NCBI GenBank assembly: GCA_030018495.1 | Contig: JASEFS010000016.1 | Location: 1-64,000, forward strand | Reading direction: 5' to 3' | Length of the DNA: 64,000 nucleotides | From: Deltaproteobacteria bacterium | GTDB taxonomy: Bacteria > Desulfobacterota > Desulfobaccia > Desulfobaccales > 0-14-0-80-60-11 | The notes under the pieces: model-generated | Databases searched by the model: none | What the model was told of the DNA's origin: nothing | What the model saw: only the letters and a program-made list of their open reading frames with translations | Shown: positions 5,436 through 50,204 of the stretch, piece after piece | How the letters are laid out: the number at the start of each line of letters is the position of its first letter | How positions within the stretch are numbered: the first letter of the stretch is position 1 | Made by a program: the position numbers and the translations under genes

Positions 5436-5924
5436 TTAACAATCGGCTGCTCCTGGCTCCAGGGCGCCGGACCCGCGGGCCAGCCATGCCTCCCGCACCT
5501 TTAAATAATCCGCCAAAATAAGGGCATGATCAAAAGCTAATTTATCCGGCAGAGCCGCCGGCGGAAAAATACCGAGATTAGCGGCGTCCGAGGCGGCCTT
5601 GGGTCGGCCGGCGCCCCTCGCCACGTAAACGGTGGTGATGGCATGTTGGCGGGGGTCTCGCTCCGGGTCCGAATACGTGTGAAACTGGCCCAGCAGCTTC
5701 ACCTTTAAGCCGGTTTCTTCCCGAGCTTCCCGGAGTGCAGCCTCCTCCAAACTTTCCCCGTATTCGACGAAGCCTCCCGGCAAGGCCCAACCGTACGGCG
5801 GCTTGGCCCGCTCAATGAGCACTAGTCCTTGTTCGTGCTCAATAATGATGTCCACCGTAGGTATCGGATTTTTGTGCCGCCGGGTGACATGGCCGCACTT
5901 GGGGCATTTTTCTTCGACAATCAT
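5436..5924 (-). CDS. Nudix hydrolase with N-terminal zinc-ribbon-like segment
   Basis: 162 residues. The Nudix box is complete: [23 protein letters not shown] at about residues 51-73. A short CPKCGH pair near the N-terminus (residues 7-12) precedes it, a layout seen in ADP-ribose or NADH pyrophosphatase-like Nudix proteins. Substrate cannot be fixed from sequence. It lies 20 bp upstream of waaA on the same strand and downstream of the DUF2939-like gene, so these three may share a transcript. Confidence 0.88.
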
Positions 5925-5953
5925 TTAGTTTACATAATATATATTATCAGACG

Positions 5954-6523
5954 TCAAAAGAGTTCCCGCTTTAATAATCTTTTGAGGTCCTGATACTGAA
6001 TGGCGACCACACGCCATTCTTTCATGGATTGGTCCCAGGCCATACTGAAGCGGAACGGCTCTCCGGTATGCGGGTCCAGAATTTTCACCTGGGCGACGTC
6101 TCCCTGCCTGTCGATATGCGCGGTAGTCGCCGCCGCCGCCAAAGCCAAAACTTCGGTTCTGCTCAATTCCTGCAAATAGCGCTCAATCGCGGCTTTCACT
6201 TGCTTGTCAAATTTTTCCACCAACTTAGGCAGGACAAACTTGGCCACTTTGGTGCCCAGACGGCGGCTCAGGCGGTCCCACTCATCCAGGTCCGGCTTGT
6301 CCGGCCCTGCCAGGTCTGTACAGCCGGCATCCACCATATTGTTGGCAATCTCTTGTAAATCCAAGTACTTAAAAAATTTGTCCATATTGCCGGTTTGAAT
6401 TGCCAGGACCATTTGCTGCAAAGCATAGCGGGGCGAATTCAGCCAGCGCCAGTAAAGCGCGCCGGTGACCCCGGCGGTCAGGAGAACCACCGCAGAAAAT
6501 ATGATTATGGCGGATCGCTTCAT
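5954..6523 (-). CDS. Membrane-anchored DUF2939-like protein
   Basis: 189 residues with one N-terminal hydrophobic segment (residues 5-25, likely uncleaved anchor or signal peptide) followed by SPRYALQQMVLAIQTGNMDK, resembling the start of DUF2939 proteins (an alternating 'S-P-x-Y-A-L...A-I...D' pattern). The rest should be periplasmic. It has no catalytic motif that I recognise. Divergent from the short gene at 6611. Confidence 0.6.
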   Translation of the reverse strand: MKRSAIIIFSAVVLLTAGVTGALYWRWLNSPRYALQQMVLAIQTGNMDKFFKYLDLQEIANNMVDAGCTDLAGPDKPDLDEWDRLSRRLGTKVAKFVLPKLVEKFDKQVKAAIERYLQELSRTEVLALAAAATTAHIDRQGDVAQVKILDPHTGEPFRFSMAWDQSMKEWRVVAIQYQDLKRLLKRELF

Positions 6524-6610
6524 CGTTTCCTTAGAGAGTCAGATTTTCGGTTGAAAGATGGCAGAAAAATTTCATATGTATTATACGCTAGACGAGCGCG
6601 AGTGGACATT

Positions 6611-7003
6611 ATGCAGAGAGAAAAATTCCTTTCCCGCCATCATCTGCCCAACGGCTTGGTCATGGAATTATGGGATTTGTCCAGGCACACCGCGGGCGAC
6701 CGCTGGCAGGTAACCGTTGAGGTGCGCGTCTCGATCCCCATATCGCGCCAAAACCTGCCGGCCGCTTATCAGGACAGGTTCGACGATATCGTGGCCGCAC
6801 TGGGGCCGCAAATAACCTTCACCAAACAGGAAGTCAGGAATTTTATCGGCGAAAAAGAGGTCCCGGCTCTGGTCAGGAAGATCGAGGCGGAATTGTTCGC
6901 GTCTATCAGCAGCTATTTGGGGCACCCCGAATTTGCGCCGCGTTTTATCCTGAAAACCTTTAAAGACGTACAAGAGCGGCAGCGTTGGTATCCGCCGGAA
7001 TAA
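6611..7003 (+). CDS. Conserved hypothetical protein, 130 aa
   Basis: A soluble 130-residue protein starting MQREKFLSRHHLPNGLV. No recognisable domain; it has mixed alpha/beta composition and no signal peptide or cysteine motif. The reading frame is open upstream to 6395, but that part overlaps the divergent neighbour and its composition is unlike a protein, so the ATG at 6611 is preferred although its ribosome-binding site is weak. It ends 21 bp before rlmI and is probably co-transcribed with it. Confidence 0.6.
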   Translation: MQREKFLSRHHLPNGLVMELWDLSRHTAGDRWQVTVEVRVSIPISRQNLPAAYQDRFDDIVAALGPQITFTKQEVRNFIGEKEVPALVRKIEAELFASISSYLGHPEFAPRFILKTFKDVQERQRWYPPE

Positions 7004-7024
7004 TTTCTTCCGAAAAGAGAAAAA

Positions 7025-8197
7025 ATGCCCCTTCCACCTGCAATCAGGCTGACCGGCAAAGGCAGGCGCTGGCGCTTGAGCGGCCACCCCTGGATTTACC
7101 GGGATGACCTCGCGGCTGAGCCCGACCTTGCGGCCGGCGAACTCGTCAGAGTCGAGAGCCCTCGCGGCGAGTTTTTGGGTCAGGCCTTTTACAGCGCCTT
7201 ATCACGCATCGCGCTCCGCTTTGTCACTTTTGATTCGGAAGCCGTGGATGATAACTTTTGGGCTGCCAGGCTTGACAATGCCCTGGCCCTGCGCGCCCGG
7301 GTGGTTCGGGATACCGACGCCTGTCGCTTGATTTACGGCGAAGCCGACGGCTTCCCCGGGCTGGTGGTGGATTCCTATGCTGGGCATTTGGCCGTCCAGG
7401 TCCTCCATCCCGGCATGGAGCGCCGCTTGCCGGACCTTATTAACCTCTTCAAGGTCCGCCTTGCCCCTGCGTCCATAACCTTGCGCCAGGACGCGGAAGT
7501 ACGCCGCCTGGAGGGCCTTCCTCTGGAGGAGGTCCAAACCGTGTGGGGCAATGTGCCTGATCCGCTGGTGGTGCAGGAAGGCCCGGTGCGCTGCCTGGTG
7601 GATATCCGGGCCGGTCAAAAAACCGGCCTGTTCCTGGATCAGCGGGAAAACCGCCTGGCAGCCGGTTTTCTCGCCAGAGGAGAAATTCTGGACGCGTTTG
7701 CCTATCAAGGCGGCTTCGCCCTCCACTTGGCCGCGGGAGCGAAAAAGGTCACTCTGGTGGAAAGCTCGGCCGCTGCCTTGGCTATGGCCCAGGAAAACGC
7801 TCGCCTGAACGGCATCGCTAACTTTGAGCCGGTGCGCGCCAATGTATTCTCATTTTTGAAGAAAGCCGTGCAGGAAGGCCGCCGCTACGATGTCATCGTG
7901 CTGGACCCGCCGGCTTTCGCCAAGAGCCGCCGGGACCGGCCGGCCGCGCTGAAAGGCTACCTGGAGCTTAATCGCCGGGCCTTCCAGCTCCTGCGGCCCC
8001 AGGGTCTGCTCGTCACCTGCTCCTGCTCTTATAATGTAAGAGAAGAAGAGTTTCTTGATCTTGTCCGCCAGGCTGCGGCCCTGGAGGGGCGACAGGCACG
8101 CCTCCTGGAGCGCCGGGGCGCAGCCCGGGACCACCCTGCCCTTCTGTCCCTTCCCGAAAGCCTTTACCTCAAGTGCTTGTTCGTCGAAATATTTTAG
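7025..8197 (+). CDS. rlmI: Class I SAM-dependent 23S rRNA m5C methyltransferase, RlmI family
   Basis: 390 residues: N-terminal PUA domain (about 1-80, with HPWIYRDD), central RlmI-specific beta-rich domain, and C-terminal Rossmann methyltransferase with the SAM loop ILDAFAYQGGFALHLA, the acidic LVESS strand, LDPPAFAKS, and the catalytic-Cys motif TCSCS. Family members methylate C1962 of E. coli 23S rRNA. Length matches the family (about 390-400). Preceded closely by the small 6611 gene. Confidence 0.92.
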   Translation: MPLPPAIRLTGKGRRWRLSGHPWIYRDDLAAEPDLAAGELVRVESPRGEFLGQAFYSALSRIALRFVTFDSEAVDDNFWAARLDNALALRARVVRDTDACRLIYGEADGFPGLVVDSYAGHLAVQVLHPGMERRLPDLINLFKVRLAPASITLRQDAEVRRLEGLPLEEVQTVWGNVPDPLVVQEGPVRCLVDIRAGQKTGLFLDQRENRLAAGFLARGEILDAFAYQGGFALHLAAGAKKVTLVESSAAALAMAQENARLNGIANFEPVRANVFSFLKKAVQEGRRYDVIVLDPPAFAKSRRDRPAALKGYLELNRRAFQLLRPQGLLVTCSCSYNVREEEFLDLVRQAAALEGRQARLLERRGAARDHPALLSLPESLYLKCLFVEIF

Positions 8198-8654
8198 CGT
8201 TTGGATTTCGTGGACTAAAGAAATTATCATTAAACAAGAAATTTGAAGAAGGGCATAAAGAAAGGTAAAGTTTTTATTCTTTCATAAGAAAAATTTATTC
8301 CTTATCGCCAGCCCTCTACCGCCTTGCTAAACGGGTAGTCAGCGCCGGCAATTTTGTCTTGGTTCCTGAAATAATGCGAATGCTGCTTCCCTAATTATTC
8401 AGACCGCCTCCCTCCTGGCTGAAAGATTTGGGCGTACTTAATTGAGGGTTTAAAAGTGATCCCTTACTGCTTTCAGCGATTTTCTCCTCCGGCAAGGCAA
8501 GGGTAAACCCTTGCCCTGGCTGAGATCGCCGCTCTACGGGCCTCTCAGAGCGTCGCTCCCGGAAACCCGCGCTGAGCGCGGCTTTGCGGCATCATCTTGC
8601 CTATACCATCATCTTCATTGACTTCATCTGCAGGTTCTCATAGAATCCGTTCCC
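8198..8654. other. Intergenic region, no gene seen
   Basis: 457 bp between rlmI and the M15-like gene. It is AT-rich just after rlmI, then holds short palindromes such as CAAGGGTAAACCCTTG (8497-8512). No RNA gene, tandem repeat or clear promoter was recognised. Confidence 0.5.
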
Positions 8655-47201: not shown

Positions 47202-47558
47202 CTAGAAGGTCATCGTTTGATATTCGGCTATCAAATCGATGAGATACGGCGCCCCTAATATGCTGACCCCCGGAATCATTTCATCGGGGGTTAAATATCT
47301 GTGATCCACTCAGGCCTTGCAGGCCACAATCTCACATTTTTCCTGTATCAAATAATCGATAAACGGCTTCATTTCTTCGCCGGTGGCCGCGCGCACGCCT
47401 TCGGCCATGCCCAGTTGGGCCCAGTGAATGGCGTCGTCCACCAGGAAGACCTTGACGTCATGCCCCTTTTCTCGGGCCACTTTGGCGAACTGCCAGGCCC
47501 GGGTGGCGCGCCCGGCCTTCTCGAAGCCGTTGGAAATGATAAAAAGCATTTTCGCCAT
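47202..47558 (-). CDS. DsrE-family selenoprotein (in-frame UGA at residue 83, CxxU motif)
   Basis: 118 residues if UGA at 47310-47312 is read as selenocysteine. Residues 1-82 are a DsrE/DsrF-like fold (MAKMLFIISNGFEKAGRA, GHDVKVFLVDDAIHWA). The sequence then reads IVACKA-U-VDHRYLTPDEMIPGVSILG and ends at TAG 47202. The post-UGA part is what a DsrE protein needs to be complete, and the UGA takes the place of a redox Cys in C-x-x-C. A hairpin lies 25 nt after the UGA. The RBS GGAGGTGATC sits just before ATG 47558. DsrE-like selenoproteins are known. It follows the seleno-cytochrome gene by 87 bp, so probably one operon. Stopping at UGA would give a truncated fold. Confidence 0.8.
47266..47291 (-). 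promoter_or_regulatory. Candidate bacterial SECIS hairpin of dsrE
   Basis: ACCCCCG / CGGGGGU, 7-bp stem with 12-nt loop AUGAAAUGAUUC; the loop starts 26 nt 3' of the UGA, inside the usual SelB window, with a G near the 5' side of the loop. Confidence 0.6.
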
Positions 47559-47645: not shown

Positions 47646-50204
47646 TTACTCCCCGCCTTCTTCCTGCTTCTCTGCCGGTTGCTCCTGAGCCGCAACCTCC
47701 TTGTACCACTCCGAGTGGTGCTTTTTGGCCCACTTGCGGCCCACCTTGCCGTCCACCAGGGCCCGCCAGGTGCCCGGGTTGGCGATGGTGCCCAGGTACG
47801 CGTGAGCGATCACCGCGGCCACGAAGATAACCGCCACGAGGCCGTGCATGGTGGACATCAAGCAGTTAAACGTCAGCGGCAGGCTGTTCTTGAAGATCAG
47901 GAGCACGCCGGTCGCACCCATAAAGAGGCTCAAGGCGGCGGTCAGCCATACAAAGATCTTTTGTCCCGCGTTCAGCCGGCCCGCCGGGACTTCCACCTCA
48001 GTGCCGCTGAAGTAGCCGCCATGCTTCTTCAGCCATTCCCTGTCGTAGGGCGCGAACCTGGCGTCCCTGGCCCAGAGGATGACGCTCACCGCCGAGGCAG
48101 CCAGGAAGATAAGGCCGGTGACCCAGTGAAAGATCACCGCGCCGGCGGGCGAGTCGAAAAACATCCTGAGCATGGACACATTATTATAGAAGAAGATATA
48201 ACCGGTGAACGTCAGCAGCAAAAAGGCGATCATCCGGACCAGATGCGTCCAGCGCTCCGCCAGGCTGAAGCGTTGAATCACCGCGGGCTCGGCGTAGAAA
48301 TCCGCGCCCTTTGGCCCCATGCCGGTGTAGTGCAGGGTGATGGCGAATACCAGGAGGAGCAGGAATATGCTCACATAGGGCGTGAGATACATCTGGTGAA
48401 ACTGGTTCACATAAAAGGCCCAGGGCTGGCAGCCGAAGAACCTCCCGGAGCTCTGGGTGACGGGCTTGCCGCCGGGGCCGAACATGTCGGTAACAATCTG
48501 GCCCTTGAACATATGGGCCTCAGCGGAGTGGCAGTCGCCGCAGCCGTTTGCGCCCAAAGCCAGGCTGGCCGGGGCCACGTTGTGGTTGATGTTGAACCCC
48601 TCCAGGTGGCCGGCCCAGGTGTCGTCCTGCCGGCTTGCCACCTCCCCCTTATCGTCCAGAAAATAGAGCCTGCCGCCCTTATGGAAAAAGGGTTTGACTT
48701 GCTGAAAGCGCTTGTTGCCCTGAAGGGTTTCCGTGAGAGCCGCCAGCGCGGTTTTGATCTGCTCGGGGGTGTGCAACTCCGGCCTTTGGGGGTTTTTGGG
48801 CTGAAGCTGCGCCTTGGCTTTTTCATAGCCTTTTTTAAGCTCCCGGGCAAACAAGGGGTAATGAATGCCGTCCTTGTCTTGGTTGGTGAAGAACACCGCT
48901 TTCAGCACGTTCACCGGCCAAAGCTTGCCGTGTTCGTCCCTCTGGTACTGAGGGTGCCAGGTGAACTCCTGGCCGATTTTTTTGGCGCCCGGCGGCGGCA
49001 TCATTTTGGCGTAATTAACCATGCCGCCGGTGGTGACATCGAAGCCTTCGCCAGCAGCCCGGTGCAGGGCCGGGATGTGGCAGACTTCGCAGGCCAGCTT
49101 GTCCAGATGGTTGGGGCGGATCTTCATGTGCGCCGGCCGGGGCGCGCCCATGTAGCCCTGTTCGTGGCACTGGCCGCAGGTCTTTATGGTGTTGTCCAGG
49201 TCGTCCCGCACCGTGGAGACGTTTTCATCCCCTTTGGCGAAGTTGTGCATGTCGTCGATGGCCGGGTGGCAATGAGCGCAGTTCATGCCCTGGAGGTTGT
49301 GGACATCGTGGTTGACCCGGTCGTCCCAGGAAAAGCCCCGCTTCTTGACATCCGACAGGCCGTGGCAGAAGACGCAGTTCTCCGCGGGCGGCGGATAGGC
49401 CAGGTCCAGGACGATTCGGCCGTCATTATTGAACAGCCGGGTGTTGTACGATACCACCGGCTGTTGGTCTTCTCTTACAAAACCCGTCACTTGGCCGATG
49501 CCCGAAGCCGCGGTGCCGGCCCACTTGTAATTCAGCATCTTGAGCTGCCGGGTGCGCTCTTTGAAATCATAGCCCGGCAGGTGGCAGATGAAGCAGTCCG
49601 CCTCCACCACGCCGGTTTTGTCCCAGCGGCTCTGGAAATAGTCGCCGTCCAGGCTCTGCGCCAGCCCGGGGTTGGCCTGCAGCCGGGCGCTGTAGCGCTG
49701 GCCGTCCCGGTCGTACTCCAGGCCGCCGCCCCCCGGATGGCAGGAGCCGCAAGAAGGCTGGGTGATGTTTTGGGGGTCTATGGGTCCGACGCTGATCCAG
49801 GCCCACGGGGTGAGGTCAATCTGATCGGGATGGTCATTCTTCTTTTTCGCCAACTGGCGAAAGGAGGGCGGTCAGAACTTGCCCATCATGCCGTCGGACA
49901 GAACCCAGGGCTTTTTCTTGTCGAAATCGTCCTTGATCCGGTCCCAGCCCTGCTGGAAATGATAGCCCTTGGTGATCTTGTCATAGTCGTGGCAGGCCCC
50001 GCAGGTCTGGCGGGAGCTGTAAGGCTGGTCGGCGTTCTCGCCGGTCAGCGGGTTGATGATCCTGCCGTCCTCGGTCTTGAGGTGGAAAGGCACGCAAGCC
50101 CGTTCCTTGGCAATCACCGGCGACGGCGTCAAGAGGGCCGATAGGCCCGCCAGCGCCAAAATCGCCGCCATGCCGATGAGCAAGCTGACCGCAAAGCGTC
50201 TCAT
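47646..50204 (-). CDS. CbcL-like octaheme c / membrane cytochrome b, selenoprotein with UGA at residue 111
   Basis: 852 residues when UGA (49872-49874) is read through. Signal peptide at residues 1-32. Eight CxxCH heme-c sites: CGACH (68-72) before the UGA, then CGSCH (152-156), CFICH, CVFCH, CAHCH, CGQCH, CEVCH and CGDCH after it. A C-terminal membrane domain of four to five helices follows (from about residue 615), with His residues typical of a formate-dehydrogenase-gamma/HydC diheme cytochrome b. This matches the layout of Geobacter CbcL, an inner-membrane quinol oxidase passing electrons to periplasmic cytochromes. The Sec context is GMMGKF-U-PPSFRQLAKKK. The first 110 residues carry the only signal peptide and the rest carries none, so both must be one protein. 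A strong hairpin follows the UGA. Confidence 0.82.
49845..49862 (-). promoter_or_regulatory. Candidate bacterial SECIS hairpin of the cytochrome gene
   Basis: UUUCGCC-AGUU-GGCGAAA: perfect 7-bp stem, tetraloop with G at position 2, loop beginning 17 nt after the UGA. This is close to the textbook bacterial SECIS geometry. Confidence 0.75.

Follow-up and report, generated by a model that had tools for sequence, protein, structure and literature searches.

The window, meaning the whole 64,000-nt stretch of DNA that we analyzed (Deltaproteobacteria bacterium, GenBank assembly GCA_030018495.1, contig JASEFS010000016.1, positions 1 to 64,000), bears on its minus strand a reading frame that is split by an in-frame TGA. 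An ATG at 50204 opens 110 codons that encode a signal peptide and one CxxCH heme site, and this stretch ends in a TGA at 49874-49872, which is codon 111. Past the TGA, the frame continues unchanged for another 741 codons until a TAA at 47646 and encodes seven further CxxCH sites and a C-terminal cytochrome b domain. If the TGA is read as selenocysteine (Sec), the whole frame (47646..50204) would yield an 852-aa protein with eight CxxCH sites in total, an octaheme c-type cytochrome joined to an FdnI-type cytochrome b, and orthologues of the same length share the in-frame TGA. A preliminary description of this DNA had noted the same split arrangement, and our analysis bears it out.

The putative signal peptide covers about residues 1-32 (50109..50204; this and all other window features discussed here lie on the minus strand). 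It was recognized from the sequence and coincides with a helix at residues 2-25 of the predicted structure, suggesting that the heme domain is periplasmic. Taken on its own, the part downstream of the TGA is a 735-aa ORF that starts at a TTG within the hairpin described below and has no signal peptide, so that export and heme loading of a separate 3′ part would be impossible, which argues against expression as two chains.

The heme 1 site (CGACH, residues 68-72; 49989..50003) is invariant in the family alignment, and the heme 2 site (CGSCH, residues 152-156; 49737..49751) is identified by alignments as the likely equivalent of the catalytic heme in OTR, the octaheme cytochrome discussed below. 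The remaining sites, recognized in the sequence and in the alignment, are heme 3 (CFICH, residues 204-208; 49581..49595), heme 4 (CVFCH, residues 277-281; 49362..49376), heme 5 (CAHCH, residues 309-313; 49266..49280), heme 6 (CGQCH, residues 343-347; 49164..49178), heme 7 (CEVCH, residues 372-376; 49077..49091), and heme 8 (CGDCH, residues 555-559; 48528..48542). The C-terminal FdnI-type cytochrome b domain, presumed to be quinone-reactive, occupies residues 643-838 (47691..48278). It matches the formate dehydrogenase gamma model TIGR01583 at 126 bits against a cut-off of 115.85, is also matched by PF01292, and has E. coli FdnI (1kqf chain C) as its best fold match in Foldseek (E 1.5e-9, TMt 0.85). 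Adjacent to the cytochrome gene is a conserved neighbor, an 82-aa gene of the DsrE family (47310..47558; PF02635, E 2.6e-11).

Decoding of the in-frame UGA

Within the same order, full-length relatives with 72-79% identity also carry an in-frame TGA, exactly one each except in G017. That G017 orthologue (L009, G017:C424) shows additional stops within its matched region, and the orthologue in G025 (L015/L023, G025:C234) is split over two frames, either of which would reflect assembly errors or decay. GTDB contigs added UGA forms from Fundidesulfovibrio agrisoli, Desulfoluna limicola, a Desulfobulbaceae MAG, a Candidatus Eisenbacteria MAG, and Ammonifex thiophilus, and a sample of the phylum added a more distant clade. 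A search of viral contigs for relatives gave no match. At the alignment column of codon 111 (49872..49874), UGA is found in 29 distinct sequences, counting the window's own and taking the full hairpin region, and Cys in eight (L017-L021, L057, L067, and L068). These UGA forms range from Desulfobaccales to Ammonifex (Bacillota) and the Eisenbacteria MAG. In a third clade, which lacks the b domain, members (L061-L066, L069, and L070) have Ser, Phe, Gln, or Ala at this column, suggesting that the fold can function with neither Sec nor Cys. On our tree, the three residue states at the column require only three changes; the tree is a quick one with some long branches and no inferred root, and we claim no direction of change from it.

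We weighed this conservation against the reading that translation really terminates at the TGA, or that the codon is due to a sequencing error or to damage in a pseudogene, such that the locus makes two proteins or none. The frame is mechanically split at a codon that is used elsewhere in the genome as a stop. Against this, the same TGA recurs in independently sequenced genomes from several phyla with the protein conserved on both sides of it, and silent positions of the hairpin that follows are under constraint. Conservation of the TGA among relatives rules out sequencing error, pseudogene formation, and two-protein expression, and we consider this whole class of explanation exceedingly improbable. 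Genome-wide reassignment of UGA was likewise rejected, as UGA ends three of the ten window reading frames checked.

Directly past the UGA lies a predicted bacterial SECIS hairpin, UUUCGCC-AGUU-GGCGAAA (49845..49862; TTTCGCC-AGTT-GGCGAAA as DNA), assigned from its folding, its conservation, and published constraints. Its 7-bp stem is perfect, and 16 nt separate the TGA from the loop, which begins 17 nt past the TGA. The bacterial SECIS model sets four constraints, namely a loop of 3-9 nt on a stem of 4-16 bp, a G in loop position 1 or 2, a spacing of 16-37 nt, and an MFE <= -7.5 (PMC13188914). The window hairpin, with an MFE of -9.7, fits the model on all four points, in agreement with the SECIS geometry first proposed for it; its folding energy by itself is mildly unusual (z -1.94). 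A search with Rfam SECIS_1 found no match anywhere, controls included, and an Rfam scan at the hairpin returned chance matches only.

Comparison across the family was more informative about the hairpin. An AGUU-loop hairpin is present in every UGA form and in no Cys form, and the inner four base pairs and the AGUU loop (AGUUG in three sequences) are kept in 29/29 UGA forms, among which pairs 5-7, farther out in the stem, vary more. Paired changes from CGCC/GGCG to CCGC/GCGG occur in L052, L056, and L059, and L042 has a compensated outer pair (T-A to C-G). The spacing after the UGA is 16 nt in the window clade. In the sister clade, which has two inserted codons, it is 22 nt; despite this insertion the hairpin stays at the coding sequence RQLA or PQLA and so shifts along with the codons that it overlaps. 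Within the hairpin, the codons are CAG-TTG-GCG in all 29 UGA forms, in genes where TTG accounts for 4-27% of Leu codons and GCG for 10-35% of Ala codons and where GC3 spans 0.36 to 0.95. By comparison, TTG is absent here from all six Cys forms that have QLA. Multiplying the codon frequencies naively gives ~1e-45, a figure that ignores shared ancestry and conveys the order of contrast only. In the 3.46-Mb genome, the pattern TGA-N(12-22)-CGCCAGTTGGCG has a single occurrence, at this gene.

The genome also encodes a tRNA-Sec with a UCA anticodon (73 bits), selB (373 bits), and selA (604 bits), all above cut-off, and its fdhA, which served as a positive control for decoding, has an in-frame UGA where one is expected, in the UHSS motif. 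A second formate-dehydrogenase-like gene with a UGA in the UHSS motif (G000:C10:78296-80308; L106-L109) lies over two reading frames, reflecting a frame shift or an assembly error. A tRNA-Sec is present in 23 of the 25 UGA-form genomes, the other two being drafts; this co-occurrence is weak evidence, since nearly all tested genomes, Cys-form ones included, have tRNA-Sec. The support for a selenoprotein is thus chiefly comparative, in that each of the 29 distinct UGA forms has this TGA and this hairpin, and we conclude that UGA-111 is almost certainly read as selenocysteine. The selenoprotein assignment in the preliminary description is thus strongly supported by the UGA or Cys at this column in relatives, the SECIS constraints, and the selA, selB, and tRNA-Sec genes of the genome.

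The octaheme domain and the position of Sec111

NCBIfam models gave only weak TIGR04314 and TIGR04315 matches to the window protein, as they do to most members of its family. A profile of the protein's own family aligned to the OTR profile by HHalign with a probability of 99.5 (E 8e-23) over a span from heme 3 to heme 7, and a profile of the c domain alone gave an alignment that begins at heme 2. Only local profile alignment was used here; global hhalign misplaced heme 1. The structure of Shewanella oneidensis OTR (SO4144, PDB 1SP3, TIGR04315) was reached neither by phmmer with a single sequence nor by a family-profile search, and the link to OTR was obtained via the TIGR04315 family and profile-profile comparison. 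A full-length structural model matched the PDB through its b domain only, and the c domain was therefore modeled alone (pLDDT 84.8, pTM 0.85). The only PDB match of this model at E<=0.001 was 1SP3 (E 2.4e-6, 470 columns), in a loose and remote superposition (TMt 0.40, rmsd 9.2 Å over the whole chain). The window protein resembles the OTR superfamily in its eight hemes and in a common profile and fold, and it resembles OTR itself in having eight CxxCH sites in like order, a similar Cys/Sec spacing, and a Lys aligned with Lys153. It differs from OTR in its TIGR04315 score (35.1 bits, below the curated cut-off of 375 bits), in a stretch from Sec to heme 2 that is longer by about 30 residues, and in its fused FdnI-type b domain. 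Very probably, the octaheme part is a divergent relative of OTR with Sec at the position of Cys64.

In the numbering of 1SP3 as printed, Cys64 is the Cys of INNFC before heme 2 and Lys153 is the Lys of GGGGDAVKHG. Sec111 lies 43 residues past the first Cys of heme 1 (43-45 in Sec forms) and Cys64 lies 42 past it; across both the window family and OTR, the Cys or Sec falls 39-45 residues past heme 1, is often preceded by an aromatic residue, and has heme 2 as the next heme. We match Sec111 to Cys64 by this distance from heme 1, by the aromatic residue in front, and by collinearity, the profile alignment starting only at heme 2. From Sec to heme 2, the distance is 38-41 residues in the window clade versus 10 in OTR, and model confidence in this stretch is moderate (pLDDT about 57-65). 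We take Cys64 to lie beside the heme 2 iron in the 1SP3 crystal, and Sec111 may likewise be close to heme 2. Heme 2 of OTR is its catalytic heme and is ligated by a conserved Lys (PMC11024163). Lys288 of the window protein (49341..49343) is aligned by profile with Lys153, the distal ligand of OTR heme 2, and is a Lys in all Sec and Cys members compared, so that it is probably the distal ligand of the heme 2 counterpart. The preliminary description had placed the Sec between hemes 1 and 2 as a redox or metal ligand, perhaps as a switch in an electron wire. That position stands and probably corresponds to OTR Cys64, but a Sec at this position, together with the Lys-ligated catalytic heme 2 of OTR, points to catalysis over a switch.

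OTRs proper offer independent support for this position. Among Desulfobacterota OTRs, about 30 of about 80 matches have an in-frame TGA, and in 13/13 that were read it falls exactly at the Cys64 position (L077, L081, L082, L087, L088, L091, L093, L095, L098, L100-L102, and L104, all TIGR04315). The hairpins of these genes are quite unlike the window hairpin in sequence, CUGGUGC-AGGU-GCACCAG being one example, so that Sec occupies the Cys position in several clades that have unrelated SECIS elements.

The same features speak to a different reading of the protein, in which it is a selenoprotein but a CbcL-like conduit: the b domain would oxidize menaquinol, the hemes would pass electrons to periplasmic carriers, and the Sec would be a structural element or redox switch with no substrate. 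CbcL, MtrH, and MtoC, which are inner-membrane quinone oxidoreductases, indeed combine an N-terminal multiheme c domain with a C-terminal HydC/FdnI-type b domain in one chain, a layout identical to that seen here (PMC6295460), and the heme number of their homologues varies from 3 to 23. Geobacter CbcL, however, is described as a conduit with nine hemes, all bis-His and low-spin (PMC9129911), and with neither a known substrate pocket nor a Sec, whereas the window protein has eight CxxCH sites and its family alignment holds only about six conserved His outside CxxCH for eight hemes. The window family also retains the OTR Lys, its octaheme domain matches OTR by profile and fold, and a conserved Sec or Cys at the OTR Cys64 position would be hard to explain in a wire. 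We therefore regard the conduit as quite unlikely, and the earlier label of CbcL-like is apt for the layout of the protein but not for its identity.

A candidate quinone-linked selenoenzyme

Leaving the exact substrate aside, we favor the interpretation that the protein is a quinone-linked, membrane-bound selenoenzyme of the OTR type with Sec in the pocket of the catalytic heme, and we consider this chain of steps as a whole reasonably probable. SelB and Sec-tRNA(UCA), guided by the SECIS directly past the codon, would insert Sec at UGA-111 to make one selenoprotein, which the signal peptide would export and to which eight hemes c would be attached in the periplasm. By analogy with its FdnI and CbcL relatives, the C-terminal domain would exchange electrons with the menaquinone pool, and a heme wire would carry them to the counterpart of OTR heme 2, with Lys288 as its probable distal ligand and Sec111 in place of OTR Cys64 in the pocket. 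There, the selenolate would probably act as a nucleophile on an S-S bond, whether of tetrathionate, thiosulfate, polysulfide, or a persulfide carried by DsrE, and the resulting Se-S adduct would be cleaved by two heme electrons. Such chemistry would be a selenium version of the route used by the thiosulfate dehydrogenase/tetrathionate reductase TsdA, which has been shown to form a Cys S-thiosulfonate intermediate (PMC5146829). TsdA serves as a working model in having a Cys at a c-type heme; unlike the window protein, it is a diheme enzyme of another family, and its Cys itself ligates the heme. Electrons may also flow the other way, as a quinone site of the FdnI type would be just as able to drive the reaction oxidatively.

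That the substrate is a sulfur compound we hold to be an even bet. At 12 loci in relatives, a number that includes copies of one genome, a DsrE homologue adjoins one of the two sides of the cytochrome, which hints at sulfur trafficking. Neighbors in the sister clade comprise ACR3, ArsC, thioredoxin and CcdA-like, or TauE/SafE-like genes, the last labeled from our reading of the sequence, as no family model matched, and include no sulfur-reductase genes. These arsenic or TauE/SafE-like neighbors suggest that substrates may vary. In one sister-clade locus (L116, G044:C10:58000-74000), the cytochrome at 5728-8385 is followed from 8645 by a second predicted selenocytochrome of the ExtKL type (NF040886), with an ACR3 arsenite efflux gene upstream and thioredoxin and CcdA-like genes downstream. 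Two Cys-form relatives (L123, 9990-10935; L125, 5033-5479) lie near or adjoin ArsC-type arsenate reductase genes.

An OTR-type selenoenzyme acting on an arsenic, selenium, or nitrogen oxyanion is a variant that overlaps with our favored interpretation, which leaves the substrate unfixed. Sister-clade genes (L116, L123, and L125) adjoin ACR3, ArsR-like, and ArsC genes, and OTR reduces nitrite and hydroxylamine in vitro (PMC11024163); the window clade, however, has a DsrE gene instead, and no ars genes lie beside the window gene, making this variant unlikely. The most specific form of our proposal we offer tentatively, as somewhat short of an even chance: a membrane respiratory seleno-heme reductase for sulfur compounds, in which a catalytic c-type heme has an encoded selenolate beside it, or is reversibly ligated by one, and is connected to the quinone pool within one polypeptide, Sec at the Cys64 position having been selected in several clades via unrelated SECIS elements. 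To our knowledge, such a pairing of a selenolate with a catalytic heme would be without chemical precedent in nature.

Sec in multiheme cytochromes is already on record, as prediction or annotation, for ExtKL, a GSU2204-type protein, and a GenBank-annotated TIGR04315 octaheme cytochrome (PMC13188914). ExtKL (cyt_C_like_Sec, NF040886), in which Sec was predicted in 2007 (PMC1914089), is likewise a multiheme c-type selenocytochrome of Desulfobacterota and Geobacter, but it has five hemes and carries its Sec past them in a C-terminal DGUPGTNR-type motif, and the window protein has no NF040886 family match. The annotated Sec OTR (TIGR04315, WP_331457571.1; PMC13188914 Table 1) is alike in Sec position, as judged from the Desulfobacterota Sec OTRs; Sec OTRs nevertheless form a separate family from the window proteins, with different SECIS elements (CUGGUGC-AGGU-GCACCAG and others) and without the FdnI-type fusion. 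A 2026 table of 119 selenoprotein families and subfamilies has no entry fitting the b-fused family (PMC13188914), and our literature search, mostly outside subscription journals, found no paper on Sec in it. The initial impression that no Sec had been described in this cytochrome class thus applies, as far as we found, to the b-fused family but not to other multiheme cytochromes. What appears to be new is the fusion of an OTR-like selenocytochrome with a quinone-reactive b domain, Sec in OTR proper having already been annotated in GenBank.

The natural function of OTR has been described as cryptic (PMC11024163), and the family reported here would add a selenoprotein family to this respiratory enzyme class. 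Its series of Sec, Cys, and Ser at one column provides a ready test of the role of Cys64 in the OTR pocket. Annotation that does not decode Sec splits the gene into a 110-aa one-heme fragment and a signal-less seven-heme protein, and as a result the enzyme has probably been overlooked in sulfate reducers and related bacteria.
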